Shown here: piece after piece, positions 12,800 through 62,113 of the stretch
How positions within the stretch are numbered: position 1 is the stretch's first letter
Layout: the number at the start of each line of letters is the position of its first letter
Notes under the pieces: model-generated
The model's input: the letters and a program-made list of their open reading frames with translations, nothing else
Told to the model about the DNA's origin: nothing
The model's database searches: none
Made by a program: the position numbers and the translations under genes
NCBI GenBank assembly: GCA_016165875.1
Contig: JABBOT010000031.1
Location: 62,001-126,000, forward strand
DNA from: Acanthopleura granulata
Taxonomy: Eukaryota; Mollusca; Polyplacophora; Chitonida; Chitonidae
Direction of reading: 5' to 3'
DNA length: 64,000 nucleotides

Positions 12800-12953
12800 A
12801 TGTCTAAAATGGCAGCCAGGGACCCATGCAACGACTTCCTCTTCAGCAAGAATGTCTCGAGCAAATTCGACGAGCACAGACGATTTTTTGTGACACGTCT
12901 TCGCTGTACAGATTTCTTGCCCTATATGAGGGATATCGAAGGATTTGATGATG
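12800..12953 (+). CDS. RLR-like exon 1: start and first half of CARD1
   Basis: The start is [15 protein letters not shown]. The ATG at 12800 has A at -3 and is the first ATG after an in-frame TAG at 12782-12784; a second Met follows at 12809. The donor is G|GTGAGT and the exon ends in phase 1. The CARD helices include [20 protein letters not shown], which lines up with the N-terminal CARD of RLRs. The 850-base intron that follows shows nothing recognisable. Confidence 0.75.
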
Positions 12954-15900
12954 GTGAGTATTAAGGCACATCCATGTAGTTTCACCATTTTGTTCTGGAT
13001 GGCCCCACAGTATAGTGACATATCCTGTATTATAAGCTGATCTTAATTTGGTGATTATTCCACATTTTTGTATCAGTTTTGTAGGTTCTGTGTCTGTTAA
13101 AGTAGAATCACAGGTCATTTAGTGCAAGTTGAATTCTGGCCCTGTTTTAAATAACCTTTCCACCACACAATAATATGGCAAGTTCGCGTTTCTTGGTGTT
13201 TGGTCAATGTCCGACATTTTATATGTCGTTTCTGTGTTATAGATTTGATGTCAATAAATCCCTAATTATTGTTTGTCTTAAGTGGCCTGTCCATCACAAA
13301 TTTTTGTCTAAAGTTGCAGATTCATGTCTAGTATTACTTTCCATTTAATGCATCATTGTTGTCAGCTACCAAGTCAAATAAACTGTATTTGGGGGTACCA
13401 TAAAATCGAAAGTGCCGCTTTAGAAATGCAAAGGAAGGCTGAGGTGCTACAGGGGACTTCTGGACCATAATGAACAGGCTGAAGTACAGTGACACCACAG
13501 ATTGTTTTCAGCTGCTAAATAAGCACCTCAGTCTTTATTTCTATGTTATTCGCTGTTAAAAATGCAAGAAATAATAAAGAACACATTTGGAATCAGCACA
13601 TGGAAGGTATGCAAGCAGGTGGGCTACCTGTAATACCTAACCAAATAGTCCAAGTTTTTGCACCTCTCATATAGAATCCATCTCAGCTAGCTCTTGGAAT
13701 TACCTGCTGTGTGGGTTTACTAAAAATGCTGAACACCAAGTATAATTTCACTCGACAACAAGGTGGTCTGTATGATGTCATAGTTCTGGTTATATGTGTG
13801 GGACTGTTGTAGAGAAACGTACTACGATTCAACAGACAGCCGGCAAACACACACCAGCGGAGGCCAATGAAATGTTTCTGGAGACTCTGAGAAAGAGCAA
13901 TGGACAAGGAAAATGGTTGAGATTTGTAGAAGTGTTGGAGGAGCTTGGTGAGATATCTTTGTAACTATTCTGCTTTAAACATTCTGCCTTGAGTATTCTG
14001 GCATTTGATACGGGCTAAGGGTTCGTGTGGCTACTTGATCCGAGCGCAGAGTTTGTAGAGGAAGCGTTTTGAGTGGAAGCGTTTTAGGGAAACTCTCACG
14101 ATGGAGCCTATATAGTTTTGTCAGACACAACTAGGTAACACAACGTGCAGAGTGGAAACTATGCGCTGAGGTTGCCACTAACTATACCCGTAACCTTTAT
14201 AAAACTATATAGTTTTATAGATAAACCTGTGGACAAAGTGACTACAACGACAAGGGGTTAAATAACAAGAAAAGAGTTCTTTAATATATACTTACTACTT
14301 ATACTTACTATGTGCCGCTGTCCCGGGTTCAAAGTGGAGAGAGAGCGAACGCCAGCCAAGCAAGTCAATCCCAGTTCAATTTGGTGAAGTCCGAAAGCAG
14401 AGGGTATCTCCAAGGAGAGAAGTTATAGTCTTAGATCGGGGGTATCAGGAAGCACAGTAACGTAGCGTGTGAGTGGCCAAAGACTTCTGCTTCTCTTTTT
14501 TAATTGAAACTGGGGGATTCGCTTATATAGCAGTGAACAAGTAAATCTTTTGTTTCTAAATTACCGGTCGTAAATTTTGAAGCCTGCGTTATCTCACTTA
14601 ATGTATCGTCTGGAGGTGCTCTCTTTCCTCCTTTGGGTAACATTAATGGGGACCAACGGCGAGAACCATTTTTGACACATGTGTGGGAATTTCAGCTTGG
14701 GCCATGATGTAGCGTTGTCCCATCTGGACAATCAGCCACGCCAAACGAACTTAAACCCGACCGTGAATTTAATAACCTTGTGTGGGCCTTAAACTTACGC
14801 GGTTCCTAACCCGGACACATGTAATCACGACATGTGCCTCGTAACATTATCCCGCCACTCGAAAAAGCACGTGACCTCACGTGTTATTAAGTTTAGATGA
14901 TGGCCCAGATGAAAATCCCTCAATGTGTTTACATGAAGTGGAACTAGATAGAACTAAAGTATAATTGCTACAGCACGACGTCAAACATGATTTGTGGAAA
15001 TATTTATCGTACACAAATAGAAAATCCATTACAACACCAAACAATGAAGCGATTACAACATTGATCAGACATGATTTGAATCGATTACAACACCAAACAA
15101 TGAAGCGATTACAACATTGATCAGAAATGATTTGAATCGATTACAACACCAAACAATGGAGCGATTACAACATTGATCAGACAGGATTTGAATCGATTAC
15201 AGCATCAAACAGTTCGTTAGCTACGAGGAAGAAGATAAAATGTATTTAAGACGGAAACAATCTGAACGAACATCGCATGGGAACATGCATTTATCACAAG
15301 AACACATATATGTATACATGTATTTTTCCTAATAATGGCTGCGAGTGAAGTCATCATATCTCTTCCTTTATCATGGGTGATCGAAAGGCTTGCGGTACGT
15401 CTCCTAGCTGGATGAAGGTAGGGCATACATCACGAGGAACATAAATCCAAGGCTCGGCACATCCCCTGGCTGATTCGGGCGACTTTGTAACTATCGAAGA
15501 GCAGTATCAGGCACGTAGAACGCAACATTCCAAGATTAAGGAAGAGTGAATGTTTACCATATAGTTATATGCCACGGTTACAGTTCTTGAGAATAAAGTT
15601 TGGATGCCCACTTTGTATAATTGTAACTGATGTCACGTGTCTAGCAAGTGATTAGAGATAGTCTAACCGATTTACCAAGGCATGATCTACACTTAGCCGT
15701 CGCAGGTAGAGTCATTACTCTCGCGCTGTGGTCGTCACCAGGCGGCTTGATAAGGTTAGCTGAAGGAAGGTCGCTTGCAGAGAATTCAAATACGAGATGA
15801 CACACTGTGACATGATACAAAACAACCTGGAAATTCACCTACCTAGAATTAGCTACCACGCAAATATACTTGAACCTATGGACCATGGATTCCAAGATAC

Positions 15901-18900: not shown

Positions 18901-21900
18901 GGTTGCGACCCGTGATGGGGGAGGACGGGATCCTGGTGGCTGAGGGCGGGTTTATCTTGCGAGATCCTCACGCCCAACACTCCACTTCGGCCCTTACTTC
19001 TCCAAAGACGGGCGGTCGGATGGCCCGATCCGATCAATCGGCTGGTCACGCCTTGCCTCTGCGTGGTCCCAAAACTTCTCTCTATAAACACTCTTTAGAG
19101 AACAAATGATTTTTCTCAAATTTCGTTCGTGGGATTGCGTTTGAGGCGGTGGCTGTAGGGTCACTCAAGTAGTCCGTGTCTAATGTGCAACCTCCTTCAG
19201 AGCGTGGGTGATGTAGGAGCTCGGGTGGGGAATGGGGTGTGCATATTAAGGCCATCTATTTGAGTGGAATCCTTGGTGTCTTTCCTGATGGGTATCCCCA
19301 GGTTGAGGCATCGCCCTTGTTGGCACTCCGTGGTGGGTGGGGAACACGTGGGGTGAATCCCTGATTATTTATTATGAATACCCTAAACCTTTCCAAAAAT
19401 GTTTCTAACATTCGATCGTCGTCTCAGCCGAATTCAGGGGCTGATAAAAAGAGGAAGCTAGAGGTTCTATCAGACCCGCGAGACATTGGACAGGAAAGTT
19501 GGCCGGCTTTTATTGTTCTCTCAACAAAGAGTGAACAAAAGCCGGCCTCGAAAATACATCCCTTTCTTTTGAAGAGGGCCTTGGAGGGTGCAGCAGGCAC
19601 TTTAAAAAATGTTAAAAAGCTGCGATCCGGAGACATTCTGATAGAATGTTTCCGGAAACAACAATCTAAAAATTTACTATCGCTGAGGAAACTTTGGGAT
19701 TTATCCGTTTTTACATCCCCTCACAATACCCTGAACAGCTGTCAGGGAATAATACGTGACAGGGATGAGGAATTTTTCGACCTAACTGAAGAGGAAATAT
19801 GTACAGAATTAAAGCCACAGGGTGTTGTCAGAGTGAAACGTTTCACAACATAAAGAGCTGGCAACATCCTCAAATTAAACACACACCTGATGACATTTAA
19901 TAGCACCTCTCTACCATCATATATCTACATTGGCCCGTATAGGGTTAATGTGGATTTATACATCCCTAACCCAACACGATGTTTTAATTGCCAAAAATTT
20001 GGTCATGGTAAAGGCCAATGTAAAAATAAACTGGTTTGTTTCAGATGCTGCAGTGAAGGTCATGATGGTTTTGATTGCAGCAGCACAATCAAGTGCTGCA
20101 ATTGCGGCCGAGATCACATGGCCTCCTCTAAGGACTGTCCTCTTTTCATTAAAGAAAAACAAATAATCAACTTAAAAACTACAAACAACATTTCCTATCA
20201 GGAGGCCGGCAAATTGGCCTCACTTTCGAGTACGCCACCGGAGACTTCGTTTGCCAATGTGGTCAAGCGAGCTGCAACATCTGTTGCAACTCAAACTTCT
20301 TTGACTTGGCCCATTGGAAACGACAAACCTAGTTCGATCTCCTTTGAACCTTCAGCTCAACCTGCCCGGAACTCTTGTTCAACTCAGACCATCACAGTAC
20401 AAGAAACAAAACCACTAAACCATGTAAAACAAACTGATAAACCTGAACCTCAGCCCTCTAAAAATCATAATGAAAAAACCAAATCCAGAAGTACAACTCC
20501 AAGTAGTAATATTAAAGCCAGTAAACCGAGTGGCCCCAGAGAACATCTTTCTAAGGCCACTCGAGATCCTGTCCAAACATTTAACAGGTTTGGATCGTTG
20601 GAGGACGTTGTCCCTTCAACATCAGATGCGGATGTGATGGATACATCACCCGCACCAGGGAGATCTTCCAGCCGATCTCCAAGGAAGGGTCGTCCTAGAT
20701 CCAAACATAAAGAGAAATCTCCTATACGCCTCCCTCCGTAATGTCTACATACGACAAAATTATGCAGTGGAATTGTCGAGGTCTTAAGGTTAATAAGATT
20801 GAAATAACACAGCTGGTCCAATCATTAAATCCCATTGCCCTTTGTCTTCAGGAAACTCACCTGAAGAAATCTGACAAAGATAAAATAACCCTCAAAAATT
20901 ATTAAGTTTATAGTACATTTTGTCACGAAGAAGAGCGAGCTGCAGGCGGCTCCTCTGTCTTCATAAATAACAATATTATCCACAGTCCTGTTGCTCTGGA
21001 TACAGAGCTTCAGGCTGTGGCCGTTCGTGTCTCATTGTCTAAGACAGTCACTTTGTGTTCGGTTTATATTCCTCCGAACACTTCTTTGTCAGCTTTACAG
21101 TTACATAATTTGAAAGAACAATTACCTACACCCTTCGTAATAATGGGCGATTTTAATTCCCATAACCCCTTATGGGGAAGTAACAATATAAATAATAAGG
21201 GCAAGGTAGTAGAAGATTTTTTAACCAAGGAAGAACTGTGTTATTTCAATGATGGTTCTAATACTCATTTGCATGCGGGTAATGGCATTTATTCTGCTAT
21301 CGATCTCACTATCACCAATCCATCACTTCTCCTGGATTTTTCTTGGAGAGTGCACGAGGATCTTTGTGGTAGTGACCATTTTCCTATTATCCTAGAGCAT
21401 GTCACTTCTAATTCTTTAGAACGTGTAGCTAGGTGGAAGTTCGATAAAGCAGATTGGATGGCATTTGAGATGTTCTGTGAGGCTGATATCACTACACAGA
21501 CTCTCAATGCAGCAGATGACCAAATATTTAAATTTAATCAGCTTATATTACGAGCTGCAGATAGAACTATCCCTAAGACCTCGACCAGTCCAAAATCCAA
21601 AAGTAAACCCTGGTACGACAATGACTGTCGTAAAGCTATAAAGGACCGTAAAAGGGCTGAGCGCATGTTCAACCATTGTCCTACTGATAAAAATTTAAAC
21701 CAGGTTCGTATTCTTGCAGCTAAGGCTCGTCGATTACTTAAGTCCAAGAGACGATCTTGTTGGCGGAACTTCGTTTCAGGCATTACGTCCAAAACACCTA
21801 TGCGTAAGGTCTGGAATATGGTTCAGAAACTTAAGGGTAAAAATAACAAAGCAAAAGTCCAGCACTTGAAAGATGGAGATAACATACTAACTTCTTCATC

Positions 21901-24900
21901 CGATATAGCTAATAAATTAGCGGAATCCATTTCAAAAAAATCTTCTTCTGAGAATTATACTTCAGAATTTCAACATATCAAAAACCAGAAGGAGAAAATG
22001 AAATTGCCCTTTTCTTCTAAAAACTTAGAAGATTATAATCGTCCTTTTAATATCGATGAACTAAAAACTGCACTCAGACAGGCACATGATACAGCATGTG
22101 GTCCTGATAACGTATATTATAAATTTCTGAACCATTTATCAGCTGAACCACTTGAGACTCTCTTGGACTTATTGAACGATATTTGGATAACTGGTAATTT
22201 TCCACCCTCATGGAGGGAGGCATGTATTATCCCGGTTCCCAAACCGGGTAAGGATCATACTGATCCAAATAATTACCGTCCCATAGCTCTTACCAGTTGC
22301 GTCTGTAAGACTATGGAACGGATGATAAATGATAGACTTGTTTGGTTTCTCGAAACCAACAAGTTACTATCTAATATCCAATGTGGTTTTCGTCAAGGTA
22401 GATCCACAGTGGATCACCTTGTTCGACTTGAAAGTTTTATTCGCCATGGTTTTATTAATAATGAACATGTGGTGTCAGCATTTTTTGACCTTGAAAAGGC
22501 CTACGACACCACATGGAAATATGGCATTTTAAAAGACCTCGCGGATATGGGCCTTAAAGGTCGATTACCTATATTTATATCCAAATTTTTATCAAATCGT
22601 CAGTTTAAAGTACGGGTGGGGTCCACTCTTTCGGACTCTTATGAGCAAGAGATGGGTGTACCCCAGGGCAGTATCCTTTCACCTACGCTGTTCAGCATCA
22701 AAATTAATAGCTTGGCCCAAACATTAACATCTGGAACTGAGGGTTGTTTATATGTAGATGATTTTCTGATATGCTACCGGGCGAAAAATATGAATAACAT
22801 CGAGCGGCAACTGCAGCTTTGTCTCAATAAGATCGAGAAATGGGCAGTTGCCAATGGTTTTAGATTTTCTACGTCTAAAACCGTCGGTATGCATTTCTGC
22901 AATAAACGGAAACTTCATCTAGACCCTGAGCTTAAATTTTGTGGTGAATCCGTGAAGATTGTTGGGGAAAATAAATTTTTAGGAGTTATATTCGATAGTA
23001 AATTATCTTTTATACCTCACATAAAAACGCTTAAAGCTAAATGTATAAAGGCTCTGGATATAATTAAGGTCGTGTCTAGCACCGATTGGGGTGCTGACCG
23101 ATCTGTTTTACTTAATTTATATCGTTCTCTGGTGAGGTCTAAATTGGACTATGGGTCCATCATTTATGGTTCCGCTAGGAAATCATATCTTAAAATGTTG
23201 GATCCGGTCCATCACCAAGGTCTGAGACTCAGCCTTGGTGCCTTTAGAACTTCACCAGTAGAGAGTTTATACGTGGAGGCCAATGAGCCTTCTTTACATA
23301 ACCGACGTATTAAACTCAGCCTTCAATATGCAACAAAGCTTAAAGCTCACCCAACAAACCCTGCCTACGACTGTGTTTTCAATCCATCATATGTAGACAA
23401 ATATACTAAATGTCCTAACAAGATCCCTCCGTTCGGTCTTCGTATACAGGACCATGTTGTGGAAGCTAACATCAAGCTAGAGGAGATAGCTCCGGTATCT
23501 TTTCCGGAGTCTCCTCCCTGGCTTCTTCCACAACCTAAACTAATATTTGATCTACGTCAATATAATAAATCGAATACAAACCCTCTTATAATTCAGCAAG
23601 CTTTTGCTGAAATTAAGGCTAATTATCCAAATTATAAATTTATATACACTGATGGGTCAAAGGATGAGGACAGGGTTGCGGCTGCGGCTGTCTTAGAACA
23701 GCGGGTCTCTTCTCTTCGTCTTCCGTCTTCATCGTCTATCTTTTCTGCAGAAGCCAGGACTATACTCCTGGCCTTATCATATGTTTCCTCTGGGCGTGCC
23801 CAGAGGACAATGGTATGTAGTGACTCGCTCTCCTGCCTTTTGGCAATGCAGAATAATAAATTCAAAAACCCGCTTATTATGGAAATTTTAGCCTTACATA
23901 GAAAATTGATTAAAAGAGGCAAAGATATTATATTCTGTTGGATACCAAGCCATGTTGGTATCCATGGAAACACAGTCGTGGACAGGGAGGCAAAGGCTGC
24001 CCTAAATAAATCCGTATCAAAAGTTAAAATCCCATACGCTGATTTTAAATCTAACATTCTTAAGTATATCCGTCGCCTTTGGCAGGATGAATGGGACGTG
24101 CAGGTGTGTAATAAACTGCACGCTATTCACCCTGTCATTGGCCATAACTCTTATACACTTGGTATGTCTCGTAGAGACCAAGTGGTTTTAACAAGATGCC
24201 GTGTTGGGCATTCTCGTCTAACACACAATTTTATCCTGGATGGGAGCAGTGCTCCCGAGTGTGTTGGATGTGATGGTGAATACGGCATCAAACATATCCT
24301 GGTTGACTGTCTAGACTTTGCCCATGTGCGGCAAAGATTCTACACAGTAAACTCCACATATGATTTGTTTGACAGCATCGCTGGCGACGCTGTCATAAAA
24401 TATTTGAAGGCCATTGGCCTGTATCATAAAATATAAATTTTATTTACATACATACTCGTGATAAAACTTCCTTAATATGCTGGTTTTCGAGTTTTAACTG
24501 TTTTGGTTTTCTTACCTGATTTTAATCATGTCCGTACGTTTTTGGTTTGTTTTTAATGTTCTCATGTCACCATCGAAAACCTGAACTGTCTCGTGGTTCC
24601 ACCTTGTTCTCGCCACGATATGGCTGAGATATTGCCGATGTGGCGTTAAGCCATAATCATTCATTCATTCATTCATTCATTCATACCTCACCAGTGCTTT
24701 ACAAACCCTCGACATAATGTCCCAGTGGAACAAGTTAAGTTAGTGGAACAGGGTCAGTTAATACGGCCATGTCGGTGGTTCTAAAAGCCCGTGGTTTCAC
24801 TGAAACTCCTAAGTTGTATAATTTAAGCAAAAGAACTTTTGCTCAGGTAAGTTGATAAATTTAAGCTGGTTTCTCCAAACGACTTATGGAGAAATGTAAT

Positions 24901-42900: not shown

Positions 42901-45900
42901 ACCAAAATAAAATTTTGCACTAAACTATGTGTTTTTTGCCCTAAGTTTTGCTCTAAGTAACTAATATGTCTCTTCTAGAGATGCCTTCCGATCATTCCGA
43001 AAACAGAATGGAGGAGTTGATCGCCCCTCCTACGGACAGGACATCGGTGAAGTACGTGACCTGGCTGAAAACTAACAAGGCCACATTGGGAGAAGCATCA
43101 AAGAGAGAAGGATGCAAACGCGCAGAATTTTTCTTGAGCTGTTTGAGACTGGCCACGGTATTTATTGATTTATTTATTAATTTTTTTATTGATTGATTGA
43201 GTGATTGGGTGGTCGATTTTATGTATTTGTTTATTTATTGCATGTATGGTTTTGTTGCGTTTGTGTGCGCAGTTATTTATGTAACTTTGCTTTTGTTCTG
43301 TGCGATGGTAATGAAACAGCAGCCATATACAAATTCAACAAGTGGCGTAGGAACATTACAACGTTAGACTGCGCACACGGGCTGCTCATTGCCCTCATGG
43401 CCCTACTGACATTCACTCAGAACGGGGGAATCAGCAGATTCTCTGTCCATTGACACTGAACCCATACATGGTCTGTCCTTGGGATTGATAGACAAACGCT
43501 TTTAACCACGAGCGGTCACGATCCGCTTCCACATAGCAATACACCAGTGATGACGGTCCAGGCGATATACCTATATGGCATAAATATCTAGAGGATATCG
43601 CATGTATCACTGACGATAATAATGATTAAACTTTGGTTCGGAGAACGTACGTAAATATAAATGATACTGTAGAAGGGACAGTTTACTTTCATTTTAGACC
43701 TGGTATTTGATCTCCTTGATATCCAGTTATTAAAAGTTGAATGGCGTTCTTCACTTGACCGATTTTGATACTAATTTTTGTACTGGCCTGTTATGTAAAT
43801 GTAAACTAAGAAAGAAAACAAGGCGAACCTCGTGTTCGATTTCAACGTAATTGTATATTTGTTAAGTTGTAGAAATCAACTTCTAAAAGTGGGCTAGAGT
43901 TGCGGATGCTAGAACCACTCAGAAGCAAAATTATACATTTTGGCTTGAGTAGCCCAAAATATTGATCGAATATAGTCATATGCTGATAGATGTTAAAGGG
44001 CTGTGGATTTCAAAAACACTTTCAAAATTTACCACATATTTATGAAAATAAGGGACATTATAAATCAGAATTCTTTTATGTTGTGTTATGTTTTCGCTAA
44101 TTGTCATCATTTCAAACGCTCTTTTCTAAGTGCATAGTTTACCATTTAAACCAAAAACGGCACCACGGACTTTTAATATTCATTTTAAATTGGTTCGAGT
44201 GATCATTTAAACAGGAATTGTCAAACAGAATGTCAGAATGTAACTATATCAATCCACTCATGCAAAATTTAAACAAAAGTGTAAATTGCTACAAAACCTA
44301 CTGGAGCGTGTTTATAAATCTATCCCCAAACAGCACCCCGGTGGAGTGTTAAAGGCTGTTGCTGTTAATAGGCTGATAACAGGTATGTAACGTGTACAGT
44401 GTTTGCTTGGGTATAAGCAGTGATGCACAGTTTATGGATAAGTGTTATCCGGAGGCAATACACATTTGTTACGGGCCTGTCTACCCTCAGTGAGTTATTT
44501 CCCCTAGTCAGGGAGACCTGAGAAAACACAACCGCCTTAGTACACAACAAGTTATACTTTTTGTCAGATTTAAGGTGTTCAGTTCATTTATGGTTATTCA
44601 TTTTTCCGTGAGAGGAAGATAAGAAAACGAAGAATCAAAACGGGAATAATTTGGGCCGCATTTCATCGCTGAGGGGGTTCTAGTATCATTTAGTTGGAGG
44701 AAAACGGACCATTTGGCTTACGCGTGGAGATTAAGCCAGCGTGAGCTGGACTTGAAGAATACCATTTTATCATCTTGGTAGCCTGAGCGAGGCGGTGGTG
44801 GTGGTGGTGGTGGTGGTGGTATTAACCCTGGGGAAACGTTTTCAGTTGTATTCAAAGCAGACAAAATTCTGATATATTTTAACTAGGTGTAAAATGACAT
44901 TATGGATTCAAAGCAGACAAAATTCTGATATATTTCAGTTGAGAACCAAATATTAGACCCTGTTGGTTGAATTGCGGATGTGTAACGTATAACACTGGAA
45001 AATTTTTTGAATTTTGTGCCAATAATATCTTCCTTTGATGCTGGCACACAAAACAAAATATTATATGTCTCAGGGCAACAATAAATATTGGGGGTGGGGT
45101 GGGGGGTGTATCTGGGATCCCGCTCAGGTTGATAATTTGGGTATCTAGAATATACGAATTTGTGGAGAAGGGGGTATAAATTTCTTTTCTGTGAAAATAT
45201 ATTCGTCCTGTTTTTCCTTGAAATGAAACACTTGTGGTTATCAGAAACTCAAATTTTACCACCCATCAGCAACAGGAATGAAGTTATGTAACAACTGCTA
45301 TCCCTACTCCCTTTTGTGCATTTACTCACTAATTGCTCCAAAAACTGCCAATTTTTGGAATTCTCATACAAAGGCAGCCCCTTCAACCAGATTGTATGAA
45401 ACATGATAAACAGCTCAACTTTTAGACATATTTTGAAACATGCTTTCAGCAAATTTAATTCTTTTTGAGTCATTGTCCATGTGGAAGATTGAAAACAGAT
45501 AATTGCGCATTGTTAAAATAAGTCTGACATGTATCCCTTACAGAAAAATGGGATGAAAATAACTGTTTATGTCATTAAACAGTTCCCGGGAGTGAAAAGA
45601 ATAGGGCCCCAGTTCTCTAGGCAAGCTTGTCGTTCGAGGCGACTAACCTAGGGCTCTCTCGTGTGGTTCCGGTGAATAGAATAGTCCCACAGCCTCCCCG
45701 GGCTGGTCGTACAAGGCGACTAAAAGGGGCAACCTGTTTGCCGTGGGTTGCGACCCGTATGGAGGAGGACGGGATCCTGGTGGCTGAGGGCGGGTTGATC
45801 TTGCGAGATCCTCACGCCCAACACTCCACTTCGGCCCTTACTTCTCCAAAGACGGGCGGTCGGATGGCCCGATCCGATCAATCGGCTGGTCACGCCTTGC

Positions 45901-48900
45901 CTCTGCGTAGTCCCAAAACTTCTCTATAAAAACACTCGTTAGAGATCAAATGATTTTTCTCAAATTTCGTTCGTGGGATTGCGTTTGAGGCGGTGGCTGT
46001 AGGGTCACTCAAGTAGTCCGTGTCTAATGTGCAACCTCCTTCATAGGGTGGGTGATGGAGGAGCTCGGGTGGGGAATGGGGTGTGCATATTAAGGCCATC
46101 TATTTGAGTATACCCCATGTGGAATCCTTGGTGTCTTTCCTGCCGGGTATCCCCAGGTTGAGGCATCGCCCTTGTTGGCACTCCGTGGTGGGTGGGGAAC
46201 ACGTGGGGTGAATCCCTGATTATATATTATGAATACCCTAAATCTTTCCAAAAACGTTTCTAACATTCGATCGTCGTCTCAGCCAAATTCAGGGGCTGAT
46301 AAAAAGAGGAAGCTAGAGGTTCTATCAGACCCGCCAGACATTGGACAGGAAAGTTGGCCGGCTTTTATTGTTTTCTCAACAAAGAGTGAACAAAAGCCGG
46401 CCTCGAAAATACATCCCTTTCTTTTGAAGAGGGCCTTGGAGGGTGCAGCAGGCACTTTAAAAAATGTTAAAAAGCTGCGATCCGGAGACATTCTGATAGA
46501 ATGTTTCCGGAAACAACAATCTAAAAATTTACTCTCACTGAATAATCTTTGCGATATATCGGTTTTTACATCCCCTCACAATACCCTGAACAGCTGTCAG
46601 GGAATAATACGTGACAGGGATGGGGATATTTTCGACCTAACTGAAGAGGAAATATGTACAGAATTAAAACCACAGGGTGTTGTCAGAGTGAAACGTTTCA
46701 CAAGAAAAAGAGAGGGCATCATCCTCAAATTGAACACACACCTGACATTTAATAGCACCTCTCTACCATCATATATCTACATTGGCCCGTATAGGGTTAA
46801 TGTGGATTTATACATACCTAACCCGACACGATGTTTTAATTGCTAAAAATTTGGTCATGGTAAAGGCCAATGTAAAACTAAACTGGTTTGTTTCAGATGC
46901 TGCAGTGAAGGTCATGATGGTTTTGACTGCAGCAGCACAATTAAGTGCTGCAATTGCCGACGAGATCACATGGCCTCCTCTAAGGACTGTCCTCTTTTCA
47001 TTAAAGAAAAACAAATAATCACTTTAAAAACTAAAAACAACATTTCCTATCAGGAGGCCCGCAAATTGGCCTCACTTTCGAGTACACCACCGCAGACTTC
47101 GTTTGCCAATGTGGTCAAGCGAGCTGCAACATCTGTTGCAACTCAAACTTCCTTGACTTGGCCCATTGGAAACGACAAACCTATTTCGATCACTGTGGAA
47201 CCTTCAGCTCAACCTGAACGGAACTCTTGTTCAACTCAGACCATCACAGTACAAGAAACAAAACCAGTAAACAATGTAAAACAAACTGATAAACCTGAAC
47301 CTCAGCCCTCTAAAAATCATAATGACAAAAACAAATCCAAAAGTACAACTCCAAGTAGTAATATTAAAGCCAGTAAACCGAGTGGCAATAAAGAACGTCT
47401 GTCTAAGGCCACTCGAGATCCTGTCCAAACATTTAACAGGTTTGGATCGTTGGAGGACGTTGTCCCTTCAACATCAGATGCGGATGTGATGGATACATCA
47501 CGGGCACCAGGGAGATCTTCCAGCCGATCTCCAAGGAAGGGTCGTCCTAGATCCAAACATAAAGAGAAATCTCCTATACGCCTCCTTCCGTAATGTCTAC
47601 ATACGGCAAAATTATAGAGGGGAATTGTCGAGGTCTTAAGGTTAATTTTATTGAAATAACACAGCTGGTCCAATCATTAAATCCCATTGCCCTTTGTCTT
47701 CAGGAAACTCACCTGAAGACATCTGACAAAGATAAAATAACTCTCCAAAATTATTCACTTTATAGTACATTTTGTCAGGAAGAAGAGCGAGCTGCAGGCG
47801 GCACCTCTATCTTCATAAATAACAATATTATCCACAGTCCTGTTGCTCTGGATACAGAGCTTCAGGCTGTGGCCGTTCGTGTCTCATTGTCTAAGACAGT
47901 CACTTTGTGTTCGGTTTATATTCCTCCGAACACTTCTTTGTCAGCTTTACAGTTACATAATTTGAAAGAACAATTACCTACGCCGTTTATAATAATGGGC
48001 GATTTTAATTCCCATAACCCCTTATGTGGAAGTAACAGCATAAATAATAAGGGCAAGGTAGTAGAAGATTTTTTAACTAAGGAGGAACTGTGTTATTTCA
48101 ATGATGGTTCTAATACTCATTTGCATGCGGGTAATGGCATTTATTCTGCTATCGATCTCACTATCACCGATCCATCACTTCTCCTGGATTTTTCTTGGAG
48201 AGTGCACGAGGATCTTTGTGGTAGTGACCATTTTCCTATTATCCTAGAGCATGTCACTTCTAATTCTTTAGAAGGTGTAGCTAGGTGGAAGTTCGATAAA
48301 GCAGATTGGATGGCATTTGAGATGTTCTGTGAGGCTATCACTCCACAGACTCTCAATGGAGCAGATGACCCTATATTTGAATTTAATCAGCTTATATTAC
48401 GAGCTGCAGATGGAACTATCCCTAAGACCTCGATCAGTCCAAAATCCAAAAGTAAACCCTGGTACGACAATGACTGTCGTAAAGCCATAAAGGACCATAA
48501 AAGGGCTGAACACAAGTTCAACCATTGCCCCACTGATAAAAATTTAAACCAGGTTCGTATTCTGGCAGCTAAGGCTCGTCGATTACTTAAGTCCAAGAGA
48601 CGATCTTGTTGGCGGAACTTCGTTTCAGGCATTACGTCCAAAACACCTATGCGTAAGGTCTGGAATATGGTTCAGAAACTAAAGGGTAAAGATAACAAAG
48701 CAAAAGTCCAGCACTTGAAAGATGGAGATAACATACTAACTTCCCCATCCGATATAGGTAATAAATTAGAGGAATCAATTTCTAAAAAATCTTCTTCTGA
48801 GAATTATACTTCACATTTCAGCATGTCAAAAACCAGAAGGAGAAAATGAAATTGCCCTTTTCTTCTAAAAACTTAGGAGATTATAATCGTCCTTTTAAAA

Positions 48901-51900
48901 CCGTCGGTATGCATTTCTGTAATAAACGGAAACTTCATCTAGACCCTGAGCTTAATTTTTGTGGTGAACCAGTGAAGATTGTTGGGGAAAATAAATTTTT
49001 AGGAGTTATATTCGATAGTAAACTATCTTTTATACCTCACTTAAAAACGCTTGAAGCTAAATGTATAAAGGCTCTCGATATAATTAAGGTCGTGTCTAGC
49101 ACCGATTGGGGTGCTGACCGATCTGTTTTACTTAATTTATATCGTTCTCTGGTGAGGTCAAAATTGGACTATGGGTCCATCATTTATGGTTCCGCTAGGA
49201 AATCATATCTTAAAATGTTGGATCCGGTCCATCACCAAGGTCTGAGGCTCAGCCTTGGTGCCTTTAGAGTCTCACCAGTAGAGAGTTTATACAATGAGCC
49301 AATGAGCCTTCTTTACATAACCGACGTATTAAACTCAGCCTTCAATATGCAATAAAGCTTAAAACTCACCCAACAAACCCTGCCTACCACTGTGTTTTCA
49401 ATCCATCATACGTAAACAAATATACTAAATGTCCTAACACGATCCCTCCGTTCGGTCTTCGTATACGGGACCATGTTGTGGAAGCTAACATCAAGCTAGA
49501 GGAGATAGCTCCGGTATCTTTTCCGGAGTCTCCTCCCTGGCTTCTTCCACAACCTAAAGTAATATTTGATCTACGTCAACATAATAAATCGAACACAAAT
49601 CCTCTTATAATTCAACAAGCTTTTGCTGAAATTAAGGCTAATTATCCAAATTATAAATTTATATACACTGATGGGTCGAAGGATGGGGACAGGGTTGCGG
49701 CTGCGGCTGTCTTAGAACAGCGGGTCTCTTCTCTTCGTCTTCCGTCTTCATCGTCTATCTTTTCTGCAGAAGCCAGGGCTATACTCCTGGCCTTATCATA
49801 TGTTTCCTCTGGGCGTGCCCAGAGGGCAATGGTATGTGGTGACTCGCTCTCCTGCCTTTTGGCAATGCAGAATAATAAATTCAAAAACCCGCTTATTTTG
49901 CAAATTTTAGCCTTACATAGAAAATTGATTAAAAGAGGCAAAGATATTATATTCTGTTGGATACCAAGCCATGTTGGTATCCATGGAAACACAGTCGTGG
50001 ACAGGGAGGCAAAGGCTGCCCTAAATAAATCCGTATCAAAAGTTAAAATCCCATACGCTGATTTTAAATCTAACATTCTTAAGTATATTCGTCGCCTTTG
50101 GCAGGGTGAATGGGACGTGCAGGTGTGTAATAAACTGCACGCTATTCACCCTGTTATTGGACATAACTCTTATACACTGGGTATGTCTCGTAGAGACCAA
50201 GTGGTTTTAACAAGATGCCGTGTTGGGCATTCTCGTCTAACACACAATTTTATCCTGGATGGGAGCAGTGCTCCCGAGTGTGTTGGATGTGGTGCTGAAT
50301 ACGGCATGAAACATATCCTGATTGACTGTGTGGACTTTGCCCATGTGCGGCAAAAATTCTACACAGTAAACTCCATATATGATTTGTTTGACAGCATCGC
50401 TGGCGACGCTGTCATAAAGTATTTGAAGGCCATTGGGCTGTATCATAAAATATAAATTTTATTTTCATACATACTCGTGATAAAACTTCCTTAATATTCT
50501 GGTTTTCGAGTTTTAGCTGTTTCGGTTTTCTTACCTGATTTTAATCATGTCCGTACGTTTTTGGTTTGTTTTTAATGTTCTCATGTCACCATCGAAAACC
50601 TGAACTGTCTCGTGTTTCCACCTTATTCTCGCCACGCGATGGCTGAGATATTGCCGATGTGGCGTTAATCCATAATCATTCATTCATTCATTATACATAA
50701 ATACTAAAACAGTTTTGGTCAGATAGATTCAATGGCTTTATCATACGTTTCATCCGGCGCTGCCCACAGAGCAGTCATATGCAGTGACTCATTGTGGCTC
50801 CTGGAAGTGACGTGATAGCATTTTGTTACCTTGGTAACCTCGAGGGGTGGGTATGGATATTAATCCTGGGAAAACTTTGTCAGTTTTATTCACAAAGAAA
50901 TAAAATTCTGACGTATTTCAACTAGGTACAAAATGAGAGTATAGAAATTTATACTGCATCAAGAACCTTAGACTCTGTGTGGCAGTGTCATCCAGTCTGT
51001 GCTCCAGCACTCTTAAATTCGGAGCCAAATCGGGGACCCAACTGATCGAATTGCGCATGTGTCAGCTGAACTCGCACAGTTCTCCTGGGTCATTACACTG
51101 CATTAGCGACTAACCCCTCTTATCCACGGACTCCTCAAGTGAATAAATAATGTCACACTGTCATCGCTGGTGTGTGTTTTCCTAAAGCAAGTCAGTAAAA
51201 CCAGTGTACTCTTTTTTTTCTGTGATGGATGCACGTCAGCCTTTCTGTATGGTTGTGCTCCTAAAATAAAGGGGTTTATATAGGTCAAAACCAATGAATT
51301 TAAAGAGCAGAGAATGATAATCCTAAAGAATTAGACTTTGCATGTTACGGATTTTAAATGCTAGGTCCATTTCAGAAACCAGGGGTATTTTCCTATCCGA
51401 TGATGCCAAGCCTTTAAAATATGTATGTTCTTCAATCAGCAATGATTAGCTGAGGAGAGCACAGTGCAGGAGTTTTAAAACCCCTCTGTTAAGCTCACAT
51501 CGATTGTTTAAGGCAGCGACCCCATTATTAACTACTTAATAACTACTGTCTAGCCGATCGCTAGACATTTTTGTTTATCGTAAATTCTCCGCACTGTTGC
51601 GGGTTTTAGGCTTTTGAGCTACCCAATGTGGAACAGTGTGAATCCTGCAACGAAAAACTCCTGCGATCATTGCTGATACCCCAGATTTTTCGAATGGACC
51701 TCTGTTAGACGTTGTATCCGTCGCATACAACGTATACTTCATGAGGCAAGAGGATGGAGTGTTTCGACACAGCTTAGTTCCACCTTGTTTAAGTGATGTC
51801 ATCCGCAATACCAAAATAAATGTTGAATCATGCATGAAATTCGAAGTATATAAATCTACCCTACCTTACCATAAGATCCTACAAGGTGGTGTAGTCATAA

Positions 51901-52670
51901 ACAGTAAAGCTTAATATTGATATTATAATAATGCCGCTAATCTATATTCAGATTTACCAGAGTGGCTTGTTCATCAACACTGAATGTAGGAGGTTCGAAG
52001 TCTTGATGTATATGCAAAAGAAAGTGGCGAAATTAAGGGAGGAGATCTCTGAATCTGGCGAAAGCATTGTGATGGACTTAATTCAAGATTTCAACGGTAT
52101 GATAGTTAGTTATTTACAAAAGGGTATCAAATTAATGGAAATAAATATTTGCTCCTCACAAAAGAGGGGCACATATTATTAGGATTGTGAGACAAACAGC
52201 TGCTTACATGCTATCAGGTATAGTGGGTTATAGCGTTCATTGCAGACAGCGCCTAGAAGAAGGTCGACCTGCTCGACCCCGCGAAAGGCGCGGAGAGCGT
52301 GGACCCACGTCCTCGGCGACTTCCTTGCCCTCCGCAGGGCCCGCGAATGTCACGGTTTTATTCAACAAGCGCTGGTATCTTGAAACTAGAAAGGTAATCA
52401 TGAAAACCTCAGAGGCTACGCCCAGCACATGTACTTGAGTATCGGTATGGAGATCAAACTACCGCGAGTAGCTTACAAGTGTTGCATATTTATGTAATTC
52501 CCATTAGTTATTGGTTTCTGCGCAATTGCGGCGCTTTTTATATAGTGCGGATGCTTTGTATATAGTATTGTGTTCACTTTCATTTTGTCTATCCTCAGAT
52601 TAAGCTTAAAACCCGACAGGATTCAAGGCATAATGTTTACACACTTAATGATTTCCTTGATTCGGACTGA
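12800..52670 (+). CDS. Tandem-CARD RIG-I-like protein with degraded helicase (13 exons)
   Basis: Joining exons 12800-12953, 13813-13947, 25470-25799, 38344-38487, 39373-39527, 39855-40223, 40870-41026, 42218-42322, 42979-43157, 43343-43444 (weak), 51952-52096, 52338-52393 and 52599-52670 gives one frame of about 700 residues, with matching phases at every junction. Approximate order: CARD1 18-105, CARD2 115-205, Ser/acidic linker 207-260, helicase from 265. The CARDs resemble those of RIG-I/MDA5, which bind MAVS-type adaptors in the cytosol. The helicase follows the RLR motif order, but motif I reads PVKSGKR (residues 292-298), the DECH box reads ELGI (394-397), motif III reads STS (434-436) and motif V is unrecognisable. 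It stops in Hel2, with no motif VI and no C-terminal RNA-binding domain; vertebrate RLRs with CARDs are 900-1000 residues. A pseudo-helicase sensor or adaptor is my inference. An old pseudogene is less likely because frame and splice sites are intact. Confidence 0.75.
13813..13947 (+). CDS. RLR-like exon 2: second half of CARD1
   Basis: The acceptor is tgttgtag and the donor is G|GTGAGA; it enters and leaves in phase 1. It encodes residues 52-96, with [20 protein letters not shown] and EELG. The W..F...L...G signature matches the last helices of RLR CARD1. A Gypsy LTR probably begins only about a dozen bases past the donor. Confidence 0.75.
13960..14846 (-). repeat. Probable 3' LTR of the Gypsy element
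   Basis: On the minus strand a purine-rich tract (gagtggcgggataa) is followed by tgttacgagg at 14846, a common LTR start. The far end is set tentatively at 13960, where the minus strand reads ...gttaca. A TATA-like tataaaac lies inside near 14200. The start is moderately supported and the end is a guess, because no second LTR is present to compare. Confidence 0.45.
15028..15211 (-). repeat. 56-base tandem repeat in the Gypsy 3' region
   Basis: The block caccaaacaatg...gcgattacaacattgatcag recurs at 15035, 15091 and 15147, with a partial unit at 15203: period 56, about 3.2 copies, few mismatches. It lies between the integrase stop and the LTR. The rest of 14847-16274 is non-coding, with two short hairpins at 16119-16147 and 16164-16197. 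Confidence 0.85.
16275..18727 (-). CDS. Gypsy pol C-terminal part: RT, RNase H, integrase, chromodomain
   Basis: About 815 residues are open without a break. From the N-terminal side: the RT catalytic box [10 protein letters not shown], the thumb ([20 protein letters not shown]), RNase H ([24 protein letters not shown]), the integrase zinc finger (H...H...CTKC), the integrase core with [12 protein letters not shown] and LLSDRGTNF, then [16 protein letters not shown], which carries the final Glu, and a C-terminal chromodomain ([20 protein letters not shown], then TWEPESHI). Chromodomains in this position steer integration toward marked chromatin in chromoviruses. The ORF runs on upstream into LINE sequence by chance (to 18779), so its true start is lost. 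It cannot transpose alone. Confidence 0.9.
19374..20741 (+). pseudogene. LINE ORF1, one nonsense codon
   Basis: It is the same protein as the ORF1 at 5307. A TAA at 19851-19853 replaces a Lys codon in a run of A, after 159 residues. Beyond it the frame is open to the stop, with all three knuckles, the first one intact as [15 protein letters not shown] single substitution would account for its inactivation. The TAATG overlap with ORF2 is kept. Confidence 0.88.
20741..24436 (+). pseudogene. LINE ORF2, 1231 codons with a single nonsense codon
   Basis: The frame is open for all 1231 codons except a TAA at 20903-20905 (LKNY*VYS where other copies read NYSLYS). It has the endonuclease ([24 protein letters not shown]), RT ([72 protein letters not shown]), RNase H ([41 protein letters not shown]...VDREAK) and a terminal Cys/His cluster. 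Every catalytic motif is present, so this copy died recently. Confidence 0.92.
24685..25270. other. Intron 2, nothing recognised
   Basis: This is AT-rich intronic DNA. I tested whether it holds the missing 5' half of the Gypsy element and saw no RT or protease blocks. Confidence 0.5.
25271..25456 (+). repeat. SINE-like repeat directly before exon 3
   Basis: It belongs to the same family as 10706-10935 (gtgcctctcaccaatgctgt, cctgcggatggccgtgggtt, aatcaaataaaca). It ends only about 14 bases before the exon 3 acceptor, so its A-rich tail probably sits among the branch-point or pyrimidine-tract sequence of that exon. Confidence 0.7.
25470..25799 (+). CDS. RLR-like exon 3: complete CARD2
   Basis: The acceptor is ttttttgtgcag and the donor is G|GTTAGT; it is phase 1 on both sides. 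It encodes residues 97-206. It opens with [20 protein letters not shown], then [13 protein letters not shown] and a six-helix CARD ending in [20 protein letters not shown]. The order I/L-QP....K....LL..L...L, then a glycine-rich loop and T..LL.R, is the pattern of the second CARD of RIG-I/MDA5. It is the strongest single exon of the gene. Confidence 0.8.
26184..26318. repeat. Palindromic hairpin element in intron 3
   Basis: Arms 26184-26200 and 26302-26318 (ccatg[t]acaaatcacct against its reverse complement, one mismatch) enclose further imperfect pairing such as gggagttgt/acaactcc. It resembles a small foldback or MITE. I do not recognise the family. Confidence 0.5.
27356..28687 (+). pseudogene. 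LINE ORF1, decayed
   Basis: The ATG at 27356 is followed by frameshifts within 100 bases and again near 27570 and 27800. Knuckle remnants remain in shifted frames near 27920-28060, and the Ser-rich tail is open from 28265 to the stop that overlaps ORF2 as TAATG. It cannot make a protein. Confidence 0.8.
28687..32322 (+). pseudogene. LINE ORF2, decayed 5' part and intact 3' part
   Basis: The endonuclease and RT parts have several frameshifts, short deletions and a stop (TAG near 30165), and the YVDD region near 30650 is out of frame. From 30775 to 32322 a 515-residue frame covers the RT thumb, RNase H ([26 protein letters not shown]) and the Cys/His cluster without a break. The contrast between the halves is unusual for one insertion. 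Confidence 0.85.
32600..32832 (+). pseudogene. LINE ORF1, C-terminal end only
   Basis: The readable tail [20 protein letters not shown] ... SPIRLPP ends at the TAA overlapping the next ATG. It matches the ORF1 tails of copies 2, 3 and 7 at a diverged level. Confidence 0.75.
32832..35905 (+). pseudogene. LINE ORF2, broken
   Basis: It has an endonuclease start ([10 protein letters not shown]) and a loss of the [12 protein letters not shown] motif near 33240. A 62-base direct duplication (rcctgcgaaggtctggaac) lies at 33885-33998, with a stop near 34418. A deletion near 34886 removes YVDD. Another near 35850 joins the middle of RNase H to the last residues. It is dead. Confidence 0.85.
36150..37381 (+). 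mobile_element. I-type LINE copy 6, older subfamily, 5'-truncated
   Basis: It contains only the end of ORF2 (RNase H, 36150-37153) with an early stop near 36314 and a frameshift near 36830. RNase H reads YTDRSKDGD, with the Gly of the motif changed. The 3' UTR differs from the other copies over most of its length, yet keeps gagatattgccaatgtggcg and the CATT tail, so this is a sister subfamily. Confidence 0.85.
37860..38026 (+). repeat. SINE-like repeat in intron 3
   Basis: It is the same family (catgcggatggtagtggttt, gtacaagtgaaatatgagta, tcaaataaataaatcaaatg). The stretch 37382-37859 before it holds nothing I recognise. Confidence 0.65.
38344..38487 (+). CDS. RLR-like exon 4: linker between CARDs and helicase
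   Basis: It has a strong pyrimidine-rich acceptor (ttttctttacttgtcgcatacag) and donor G|GTCTGC, phase 1 on both sides. It encodes residues 207-254, rich in Ser, Arg and acids ([20 protein letters not shown]). Low-complexity charged linkers are usual between CARDs and helicase in RLRs. There is no motif of its own, so support is from splice sites, phase and position. Confidence 0.6.
39209..39340 (+). repeat. Tandem duplication, about 65 bases, intron 4
   Basis: ttttgtccaaaccagtacag and its neighbour (from 39274) repeat the same block, including ccgtctcatcaga and tacagtgtat. There are two copies with a few differences. The rest of intron 4 shows nothing recognisable. Confidence 0.8.
39373..39527 (+). 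CDS. RLR-like exon 5: Q-like region and helicase motif I
   Basis: The acceptor is ttaactaatcaacag and the donor is AAG|GTAAGT; it enters in phase 1 and leaves in phase 0. It encodes residues 255-306. [20 protein letters not shown] followed by [18 protein letters not shown] lines up with the RLR block L..YQ.E.....L..KN.IIC.PTGSGKT.VA. The Walker Lys is kept (K297), but the first Gly of GSGKT is Lys (K294) and the Thr is Arg (R298). See findings. Confidence 0.78.
39855..40223 (+). CDS. RLR-like exon 6: Hel1, motifs Ia to II
   Basis: The acceptor is tatgttttatcaag and the donor is CAG|GTATCT, phase 0 on both sides. It encodes residues 307-429. [18 protein letters not shown] corresponds to motif Ia (VLV.K..L..Q), [14 protein letters not shown] to the block before motif II (IIISTAQIL.N.L), and [12 protein letters not shown] to motif II, where RLRs and Dicer have a DECH box. 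The two acidic residues of the box are lost (only Glu394 at its first place). The exon ends at SPQ, the usual residues before motif III. Confidence 0.78.
40294..40530 (+). repeat. 118-base tandem duplication in intron 6
   Basis: cactattaatttctttct recurs at 40303 and 40421, followed by cagtagcttttgtagacg and gaaacattatttttcatgtg in both units. The two units differ at only a few positions, so the duplication is recent. Confidence 0.9.
40870..41026 (+). CDS. RLR-like exon 7: motif III and end of Hel1
   Basis: The acceptor is ttactatttaccaag and the donor is G|GTGAGT; it enters in phase 0 and leaves in phase 1. It encodes residues 430-481. [11 protein letters not shown] replaces the RLR block ILGLTASPGVG; what follows ([19 protein letters not shown]) lines up with the L...LDA..I.TV....V stretch after motif III. 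Another frame of the same DNA is also open but has no family resemblance. Confidence 0.75.
41801..41915 (+). repeat. Degenerate SINE-like fragment (three tandem-block copies)
   Basis: Weak resemblance to the SINE-like 3' half: gtgtggatgtttccctcagg, catataagagaaatagtctt, cggcgttcaacaccaatcca. It is repeated in the other blocks near 53429 and 61170. Intron 7 otherwise shows nothing. Confidence 0.45.
42218..42322 (+). CDS. RLR-like exon 8, copy 1: Hel1-Hel2i linker
   Basis: The acceptor is gtatttttctgtag and the donor is A|GTAAGT, phase 1 on both sides. It encodes residues 482-516: [20 protein letters not shown] and [15 protein letters not shown]. It corresponds to the F...L..IM..I helix at the start of the RLR insertion domain. 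Confidence 0.72.
42543..42690 (-). repeat. Inverted SINE-like repeat (three tandem-block copies)
   Basis: The reverse complement reads ccgtcgtataagtgaaataa, acggcgtaaaacaccaattg and ctggcttcctc-type blocks of the SINE-like family. Copies are at 54171 and 61914. It is followed by a TA/TATG-rich microsatellite (42702-42821 here), which differs in length among the blocks. Confidence 0.65.
42702..42821. repeat. Microsatellite, TA/TATG-rich
   Basis: Alternating tatata and tatgta runs; longest in copy 3 (62080-62240) and shortest in copy 2 (54336-54450). The open frames through it are artefacts of low complexity. Confidence 0.9.
42979..43157 (+). CDS. RLR-like exon 9, copy 1: Hel2i
   Basis: The acceptor is atgtctcttctag and the donor is ACG|GTATTT; it enters in phase 1 and leaves in phase 0. 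It encodes residues 517-576. [20 protein letters not shown] and [15 protein letters not shown] line up without gaps with the RLR Hel2i stretch (G.Q.YE.W......A.......C...L..Y..AL). In-frame AG|ATG at the exon start could also look like a start codon. Confidence 0.72.
43343..43444 (+). CDS. RLR-like exon 10 candidate, copy 1: Hel2i helix
   Basis: The frame [17 protein letters not shown] matches the RLR helix that follows the previous exon (I.D..R..DAL..L..F). The flanking signals are weak (acceptor aattcaacaag, donor TCT|GTCCAT), and a TGA lies six bases past the donor. It may be a terminal exon of a short form, or the borders may be wrong. The same frame is open in copies 2 and 3. Confidence 0.4.
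43454..45581. other. Intron, copy 1
   Basis: It is intronic in the model. It contains a GGT microsatellite at 44791-44820 and no exon that I can support. Counterparts are at 55082-57240 (copy 2) and 62875-64000 (copy 3, with a deletion of about 475 bases at 63795). Confidence 0.6.
46229..47593 (+). pseudogene. LINE ORF1, one nonsense codon
   Basis: It is open for 205 residues to a TAA at 46844-46846 inside the first zinc knuckle (CFNC* where others read CFNCQ). It is then open to the end, with [14 protein letters not shown] and [15 protein letters not shown]. One base change would explain the loss. It overlaps ORF2 as TAATG. Confidence 0.88.
47593..50455 (+). pseudogene. LINE ORF2 lacking most of RT
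   Basis: The endonuclease is intact ([10 protein letters not shown]). A frameshift occurs near 48815. At about 48896 an internal deletion joins the N-terminal linker (YNRPF) directly to the RT thumb ([14 protein letters not shown]), removing the FFDLEKA to YVDD blocks. There is another frameshift near 49300, then intact RNase H to 50455. It has no polymerase activity. Confidence 0.88.
50733..50795 (+). repeat. Short LINE ORF2 scrap in copy 1
   Basis: ggctttatcatacgtttcat and gcagtgactc are the start of the older LINE fragment that copy 2 carries at 57283-58168. Here all but about 63 bases were deleted, up to ggctcctggaagtgacgtg. Confidence 0.8.
50796..51951. other. Intron, copy 1
   Basis: No exon or known repeat is seen. 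It is nearly identical to 58522-59675 in copy 2. Confidence 0.6.
51952..52096 (+). CDS. RLR-like exon 11, copy 1: start of Hel2
   Basis: Two in-phase acceptors are possible (attcag before 51952 or ttaccag before 51961). The donor is G|GTATGA. It enters in phase 0 and leaves in phase 1. [18 protein letters not shown] and [11 protein letters not shown] correspond to LF.EN.........PE...L.KLR..I, which precedes motif IV in RLRs. Copy 2 differs by two residues (RFDAL). Confidence 0.65.
52338..52393 (+). CDS. RLR-like exon 12, copy 1: motif IV
   Basis: The strong acceptor gacttccttgccctccgcag gives phase 1 entry, and donor AAG|GTAATC leaves in phase 0. [19 protein letters not shown] resembles motif IV (.IIF..TR....L). 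In copy 2 the frame stays open past this donor to 60216; in copy 1 an extra C near 52408 shuts that longer form. Confidence 0.6.
52599..52670 (+). CDS. RLR-like exon 13, copy 1: degenerate motif V and stop
   Basis: The acceptor is cattttgtctatcctcag, phase 0. It encodes [20 protein letters not shown] then DSD and TGA at 52668-52670. The spacing matches F.....NLL.AT.VA.EG.D of RLR motif V, but the conserved residues are replaced. It ends the protein before motif VI. Confidence 0.6.
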   Translation: MKLKTRQDSRHNVYTLNDFLDSD

Positions 52671-53845
52671 TCGTTGGTTTAGTTGTCACCTTAATATTCG
52701 AAATATAGACAACTTTTAACACGTCGTTTGAGTTTCAGAAAATTCAAGAAATTTCGTTCCGGTAGTTTTCTGAGATTTCATGAGATTTCTTTGGGTGTAC
52801 TGCATTTGCTGCCTTGCCTTCATGAAATATGGAATCACTTTTGTGGGATAACCAGTACAGTAAACTAAATGAACATAAACTGTGAGATGAGAGTTTTTTC
52901 TAAAGCTATCTAAGAGCTAACTGAAAAGAAAGTTTTATTCATTTATAGATTTTCTCTCACTATCTGCGAAGACGCTTTACTTCAGATTTGCCTTTTCCTG
53001 ATGGTACAATGTCATATCTTGGTTACTACTAGTCAGAAATATCAAAGAATATGGTGATTTTGTTTGGTGTCGGGAATAGTCATTAGTGTCTGCTTTCTTT
53101 CGGCTGTCAGTTTGGCGACGTGTCAGAGGGTACTTTGCTTTGAAGAATTCAACTTCACACACTTAGCCAGCAAATCGCACTAGAGTATACTACTTGTTAA
53201 ATATCTTGATGATCTATCTTCGCGTCGGTAACTTTGTCCGGGAAAGACGTCACACATTAGCGGACTGTCAATTCGGAAGTAGTAGAGGAAATTGTGTGTA
53301 TCACGTGACTAGTGGTGGCCGCAGAAGAGAAGGAGACACTTTCACACTCACTGTCCAGTAACGATCCTACAACGTGACATCTTTCCCGGGCACAGTATCC
53401 GTGTCACTCATGCAGATAATTATCAAATGCAACGTGTGGATGTTTCCCTCAGGCTCTGCTTGGTTTGCACCGATCGCGATGCCAGCCGCCATCATATAAG
53501 AGAAATAGTCTTCAGTACGGCGTTCAACACCAATCCACACACAAAAAAAATCAAAATTAACAAATGGTATTGTAGCGCGCTATGTGCGAGGTCACTGTGA
53601 ATTTGCATCCCTCGAAGCGAAGTTAGATGGCATCCAAGAGACAGCTTTTGTACGGGTAGGTGTTGATATGTTAATGACGACGCCTGGAAAACAACAATAC
53701 AAAGTCGTTCAGTGTCTGAATTTCAGACTAAATCACAACATGTACTAATAAAACCCTCCACTTAAAGAAAAATATTTCAGGTATACATTCGCCGTGTATT
53801 CAATACAGGCGGTAGTATATGCATTGTATATGTATTTTTTTGTAG

Positions 53846-53950
53846 AAATTACAGCAGTACCCGAAAAACACAACCTGGGGTTTGATGGGATGATCAATGA
53901 GCTTATGTCACGTGTAGAAAAGGCCATGAAGGAACACTATCAGTCCAACA
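53846..53950 (+). CDS. RLR-like exon 8, copy 2
   Basis: Same splice sites and phase as copy 1, frame open. It differs at the start (EITAVPEKH instead of ERTVVPEKH). Confidence 0.65.
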
Positions 53951-54606: not shown

Positions 54607-54785
54607 AGATGTCTTCCGATTATTCCGAAAACAGAATGGAGGAGTTGATCGCCCCTCCTACGGACAGGACATCGGTGAAGTACGTGACCTGGCTGAAAAC
54701 TAACAAGGCCACATTGAGAGAAGCATCAAAGAGAGAAGGATGCAAACGCGCAGAATTTTTCTTGAGCTGTTTGAGACTGGCCACG
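54607..54785 (+). CDS. RLR-like exon 9, copy 2
   Basis: Frame, acceptor and donor are kept. Replacements include MSSDYSEN for MPSDHSEN and TLREASK for TLGEASK. Confidence 0.65.

Positions 54786-62080: not shown

Positions 62081-62113
<33 letters not shown>

Follow-up and report, generated by a model that had tools for sequence, protein, structure and literature searches.

A predicted CARD-bearing pseudo-helicase of the RLR lineage in the chiton Acanthopleura granulata

Gene structure of the locus

The window, i.e., the whole 64-kb stretch of Acanthopleura granulata DNA that was analyzed, is a retroelement-rich, intron-rich animal locus. It carries a gene of ten exons on the forward strand (12800-52096), which are joined by nine GT-AG introns of matching phase and together form an open frame of 624 codons. 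The gene model was first built by eye and then refitted to the best relatives; all coordinates are those of the window (Table 1). An earlier note on this DNA had described thirteen exons with compatible phases. The matching phases were borne out, but only ten exons are supported, and the last exons of that model, which reached to 52670, find no support as 52096-52670 matches no stretch of the two closest relatives, P0001 and P0002 (see below). Exon E3b can be skipped in frame (phase 1-1) and is found in P0002 but not in P0001; it is likely an alternative exon. It encodes a serine/arginine-rich linker between the CARDs and the helicase.

Table 1. Features of the locus (window coordinates; bits from tblastn).
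Feature	Position	Strand	Content and evidence
E1	12800-12953	+	Start codon and first half of CARD1; tblastn P0001 1-47, 67 bits; GT donor, out phase 1
E2	13813-13947	+	Second half of CARD1; tblastn P0001 49-94; AG/GT, phase 1->1
E3	25470-25799	+	CARD2; Pfam CARD_2 5.7e-8; P0001 94-204, 115 bits; AG/GT, phase 1->1
E3b	38344-38487	+	Optional CARD-helicase linker; tblastn P0002 48-118, 61.6 bits; AG/GT, phase 1->1
E4	39373-39527	+	Q motif and altered motif I (CPVKSGKR); P0001 206-257, 81.6 bits; AG/GT, phase 1->0
E5	39855-40223	+	Motifs Ia, Ib (IAKAK), II (ELG); P0001, 171 bits; AG/GT, phase 0->0
E6	40870-41026	+	Motif III (LSTS), end of Hel1; P0001 380-430, 85.9 bits; AG/GT, phase 0->1
E7 copy 1	42218-42322	+	Hel2i; matches P0001/P0002; AG/GT, phase 1->1
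E7b copy 1	42979-43157	+	Hel2i; P0001 468-529 inside 95.5-bit match; AG/GT, phase 1->0
E8 copy 1	51952-52096	+	Hel2i; P0001 530-576, 58.9 bits; AG/GT, phase 0->1
E7 copy 2	53846-53950	+	4/105 mismatches to copy 1; reading frame and splice sites intact
E7b copy 2	54607-54785	+	3/179 mismatches to copy 1; reading frame and splice sites intact
E8 copy 2	59676-59820	+	3/145 mismatches to copy 1; reading frame and splice sites intact
E7 copy 3	61588-61692	+	2/105 mismatches to copy 1; reading frame and splice sites intact
E7b copy 3	62400-62578	+	4/179 mismatches to copy 1; reading frame and splice sites intact
Tandem array, ~7.7-kb unit with E7, E7b, E8	41053-63797		Repeats 95.0-96.6% identical
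Non-LTR retroelement, long copies	5029-10585, 19107-24678, 27078-32563, 45951-50692		
Non-LTR retroelement, fragments	32.6-37.1 kb, 57282-58169		
Ty3/Gypsy-type pol, 840 open codons	16278-18797	-	RNase H, integrase, C-terminal chromodomain; intron E2-E3

One non-LTR retroelement of the endonuclease-reverse transcriptase type is present in at least four long copies in the introns and the flank of the gene. Its open reading frame at 20906-24433 matches RVT_1 (1.4e-33), and the youngest pairs of copies are 94-97% identical.

Encoded domains and relatives in a second chiton

The joined protein consists of two CARDs, an RLR-type Hel1 and part of Hel2i. In Pfam it matches two CARD_2 stretches and RIG-I_C (1.5e-7), and the CARD2 exon is recognized on its own (Table 1), which bears out the tandem CARDs described earlier, while E1 and E2 alone matched no Pfam family. 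For the Hel1 exons RIG-I is the best solved-structure match (1.9e-5), in line with the RLR-type helicase claimed before; structure models gave further support for Hel1 only. The SF2 Hel1 with an RLR-type Hel2i insert that is typical for CARD-bearing RLRs is therefore found in the window gene.

Two proteins, both from Liolophura sinensis (Mollusca, Polyplacophora), were listed among the 7992 scored candidates of a protein search with the window gene. The best match, P0001 (LOC135477010, uncharacterized, 928 aa), shows 63% identity over 84% of the query; the second, its paralogue P0002 (LOC135476093, uncharacterized, 815 aa), begins inside CARD2 as annotated. Both match RIG-I_C and RIG-I_C-RD, and the window gene is 64-69% identical to the Liolophura proteins. 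A profile search added P0003 (LOC135476782 isoform X2, 464 aa), which stops within Hel2i, and a mussel protein named IFIH1 (P0004), which was used as control. No relatives beyond these four were found in a third protein search.

With P0001 as tblastn query the window yields 14 pieces of at least 40 bits, which run in order along the window. Leaving E3b aside, this number equals that of the exon copies, namely six exons present once, E7 and E7b in three copies each, and E8 in two. The best of 50 shuffled versions of P0001 reached 28.5 bits and the reversed protein 21.6 bits. As these controls score far below 40 bits, the match is more than chance.

Altered ATPase motifs

The pattern search for motif I gave CP[AV]KSGKR in the window gene, P0001 and P0002, and KSGKT in P0003. 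The DECH of motif II is changed to ELGx, with ELG in all four family sequences (window gene, P0001, P0002 and P0003), so that the DECH glutamate is lost in each of them, whereas it is present in the mussel control. Motif Ib, TPQ, is changed to KAK, which reads IAKAK in three of the four sequences and MIGE in P0003. In motif III the change is mild: LTAS became LSTS in three sequences and LSAS in P0003. The mussel protein shows SGKT, TPQ, DECHH and LTAS at these places. P0003 keeps the SGKT of motif I but has ELG in motif II.

Placed on the rows of RIG-I, the window gene keeps Q247 and K270, while G267 is exchanged for Lys, T271 for Arg and T347 for Lys. E373 aligns to Leu (in the ungapped and in a separate alignment) or to Ile (in the gapped HMMER alignment), and to Glu in none. 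The P-loop lysine is present in all four family sequences; since it is kept together with the Q-motif glutamine, ATP binding is still possible. Judged from P0003, loss of the catalytic glutamate probably preceded that of the P-loop threonine, and P0003 itself may represent an intermediate stage on the way to a lost ATPase.

The DExD/H ATPase motifs I and II of a CARD-bearing RLR are not retained in the window gene, P0001 and P0002. Because the homology fits the RLR lineage but these defining motifs fail, the gene is, by homology, an RLR-lineage pseudo-helicase, and not RIG-I or MDA5. The earlier note had listed motifs I, II, III and V as altered. This stands for I and II and in mild form for III, and motif Ib has to be added, but for motif V no support was obtained. 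Relatives with the same replaced residues do exist among the Liolophura genes, and as these are the genes of another chiton, the reading as a CARD-bearing RLR relative with a dead-looking helicase is supported more strongly than before.

Hel2 and the C-terminal domain

Within the window no match to the Hel2 motifs IV-VI was found. In the full-length relatives P0001 and P0002 Helicase_C is not matched in Pfam, whereas the mussel protein matches it at 9.1e-19, and their Hel2 as a whole gives no significant alignment to the mussel Hel2. The region where motif V is expected reads FHVLITTWPILAFHLG in both proteins (16/16 identical), and none of the three RGR patterns tried for motif VI was found in them.

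The C-terminal domain (CTD) of P0001 and P0002 is matched by Pfam RIG-I_C-RD (1e-7 and 2e-9) and contains two CxxC pairs. Between the two proteins it is the best-conserved domain measured, with 110/143 identical positions (Hel1: 138/192). Compared with the duck RIG-I CTD (4a2v, E 0.0034) the basic positions are kept; on this alignment we find lysines at what we take to be K858 and K888, and an Arg at the presumed K861. It is plausible that the CTD binds RNA ends.

The window stops short of the part that RIG-I_C-RD would cover and does not match this family, and residues 578-928 of P0001 gave no window match above background (tblastn). The Hel2i exon array runs to the right edge of the window, and the 3' exons therefore probably lie beyond base 64000. 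The missing end described earlier is thus probably an effect of the window edge, as the full-length relatives do have a C-terminal domain.

If the helicase part had no nucleic-acid role at all and merely placed the CARDs, the gene would encode a CARD adaptor. The exchange of the RNA-contact residues TPQ of motif Ib for KAK and the unrecognizable Hel2 would fit such a protein; however, that the CTD of the relatives is their best-conserved domain and keeps its basic positions speaks against it, and we regard it as most improbable.

The protein may instead be an active sensor, in which RNA binding alone frees the CARDs and signaling proceeds without proofreading by ATP, like in the human Singleton-Merten variants of RIG-I. 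In RIG-I, ATP binding is described to lead to the signaling state and ATP hydrolysis to the release of self RNA; E373Q, E373A and C268F signal without infection, with the E373 variants being constitutive and C268F being independent of ATP but dependent on RNA, and variants of the motif II glutamate are a cause of autoinflammation in humans (PMC4733034, PMC6086658). The absence of the E373-equivalent glutamate from all four family sequences would agree with this, as would the retained P-loop lysine, which is used by the salt bridge of C268F. However, E373Q is reported to still need T347 (PMC4733034, PMC6086658), and the aligned position is a Lys here. Moreover, the partner in the salt bridge sits in Hel2, for which the relatives gave no significant alignment. 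An active sensor is therefore unlikely in our view. RIG-I needs ATP binding for signaling, and its K270I variant, which binds ATP poorly, holds stimulatory RNA and is silent (PMC4733034). The replaced T347 position and the decay of Hel2 lead us to favor a silent RNA binder that would brake or tune ordinary RLRs over a sensor free of proofreading.

Tandem array of Hel2i exons

Downstream of E6 the Hel2i exons are repeated in a tandem array, whose unit starts 23-27 bases beyond the end of this exon. The repeats pair 41053-45581 with 52681-57246 (96.6% identity), 41049-44353 with 60418-63797 (95.0%) and 50793-56004 with 58519-63797 (96.5%), and bring the exons to three copies of E7, three of E7b and two of E8. 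As the exons of one unit enter and leave in phase 1, the array is an in-frame repeat. The first unit is enlarged by a retroelement of ~5 kb, whereas the second has a different, older fragment at this place (84% identical).

The array could reflect repetition of Hel2i, a set of alternative exons, copies in decay or an error of the assembly. In the latter case, which concerns the array only, the three copies would not exist in the genome. With 95-97% identity between the copies and a window edge that falls within the third, the array has traits that an assembly error might produce; however, three copies exceed what two haplotypes would give, and the first two units differ in their retroelements. 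We therefore consider an assembly error somewhat unlikely.

Conservation and selection

In the helicase 369 columns are common to the window gene, P0001 and P0002, of which 207 are invariant. The windows of motifs I-III are invariant in 24 of 30 columns compared to 183 of 339 elsewhere (Fisher P 0.004, for windows chosen by us and with two of the three sequences being paralogues of the same species). In a random-window test 3.2% of 20,000 sets do as well, which makes the signal moderate only. Outside of the Fisher test, invariant columns amount to 5/8 in motif Q, 8/9 in Ia and 8/12 in Ib. The conservation of the altered motif windows above the rest of the helicase argues that the replaced residues are kept and do not drift.

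For the copies of E7 and E7b, amino-acid-changing versus silent differences are 6/1 (copy 1 versus 2), 5/1 (1 versus 3) and 9/0 (2 versus 3), and the two E8 copies differ by two changing and one silent exchange. In these small numbers the tandem exon copies show no sign of constraint, i.e., purifying selection, since their duplication, which weighs against the reading as a retained pseudo-helicase. In E8, copy 2 (FDAL) agrees with both relatives, but copy 1 (FEVL) does not.

This pattern among the repeated Hel2i exons, the introns packed with retroelements and the 3' end outside of the window are what one may see in a pseudogene that decays while the rest of its family works. Against this, the frame is kept over 624 open codons and all nine introns are GT-AG, reading frames and splice sites are intact in the extra exon copies as well, and the gene retains 64-69% identity to the Liolophura proteins with motif windows above average. 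The pseudogene is thus an improbable explanation. As genes of another chiton carry the same losses, the window gene looks like a retained, ATP-independent relative of RIG-I and not like a broken one.

Discussion

The most likely reading, in which we place about even trust, is that this gene of the RLR lineage has lost its ATPase center and codes for an ATP-independent, RNA-binding regulator with CARDs. The window would hold the 5' part of the gene, encoding CARD-CARD, Hel1 and Hel2i, and as in the full-length relatives this part would be followed by an unrecognizable Hel2 and a putative C-terminal RNA-binding domain. The protein would work without ATP turnover: the CTD would bind RNA ends, the Hel1-Hel2i body would serve as a scaffold, and the tethered CARDs would tune MAVS-type signaling by ordinary RLRs as decoy, brake or co-assembly partner. 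We predict that the protein is devoid of ATPase activity and that it regulates signaling instead of starting it. Its role may be that of an adaptor, decoy or regulator, as the earlier note had proposed. The CARDs of oyster RIG-I are reported to bind oyster MAVS (PMC5557890). A possible precedent for regulation by an inactive helicase is LGP2, of which a catalytically inactive mutant is described to still inhibit RIG-I (PMC3914343).

The Liolophura proteins P0001 and P0002 are the closest known counterparts of the window gene. They share the altered motifs I, Ib, II and III and the order of the exons, and extend through the Hel2 remnant and the CTD, whereas the part in the window stops earlier. 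Two CARDs, Hel1, Hel2i and, in the relatives, the CTD follow each other in the same order as in RIG-I and MDA5; however, the DECH glutamate, the P-loop threonine and TPQ of motif Ib are replaced here and Hel2 is not recognizable. LGP2 likewise combines an RLR helicase with a CTD and is the best single solved-structure match of P0001 (1.2e-17), but it has no CARDs and is reported to have ATPase activity of its own (PMC10909783), unlike the CARD-bearing window gene. In the helicase of vertebrate Dicer, from the wider group, the ATPase function is described as lost although the helicase was kept in the protein (PMC10159624). The ATPase motifs of Dicer are, however, described as well conserved and CARDs are absent, while the motifs are replaced in the chiton gene. 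Tandem duplication and exon shuffling are also reported for lophotrochozoan RLR paralogues in a survey that stresses N-terminal variety and screened for the helicase domain and the CTD (PMC8998645); its main text contains neither 'chiton' nor 'polyplacophor'. In the collection of literature that was searched, no description of a CARD-bearing pseudo-helicase of this kind was found.

A wider proposal, which we put forward tentatively and think rather unlikely as a whole, is that a class of RLR-lineage proteins in chitons senses or polices RNA by CARDs and CTD without an ATPase. Here selection would have kept the motor fold as a scaffold whose nucleotide site was rebuilt (KSGKR, ELG, KAK), and the Hel2i repeat, being symmetric in phase, would provide repeated or interchangeable segments that vary the contact to RNA. 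Should this be true, it would be a natural experiment on the part of ATP in RLR proofreading.

Surveys that require a recognizable helicase domain, as the one in PMC8998645 did, could miss such genes. A CARD-bearing relative that has replaced the motif II glutamate and further motif residues but persists at two or more loci of chitons would show either that RLR-type signaling is controllable without ATP, or that molluscs retain dead RLRs as dedicated regulators.
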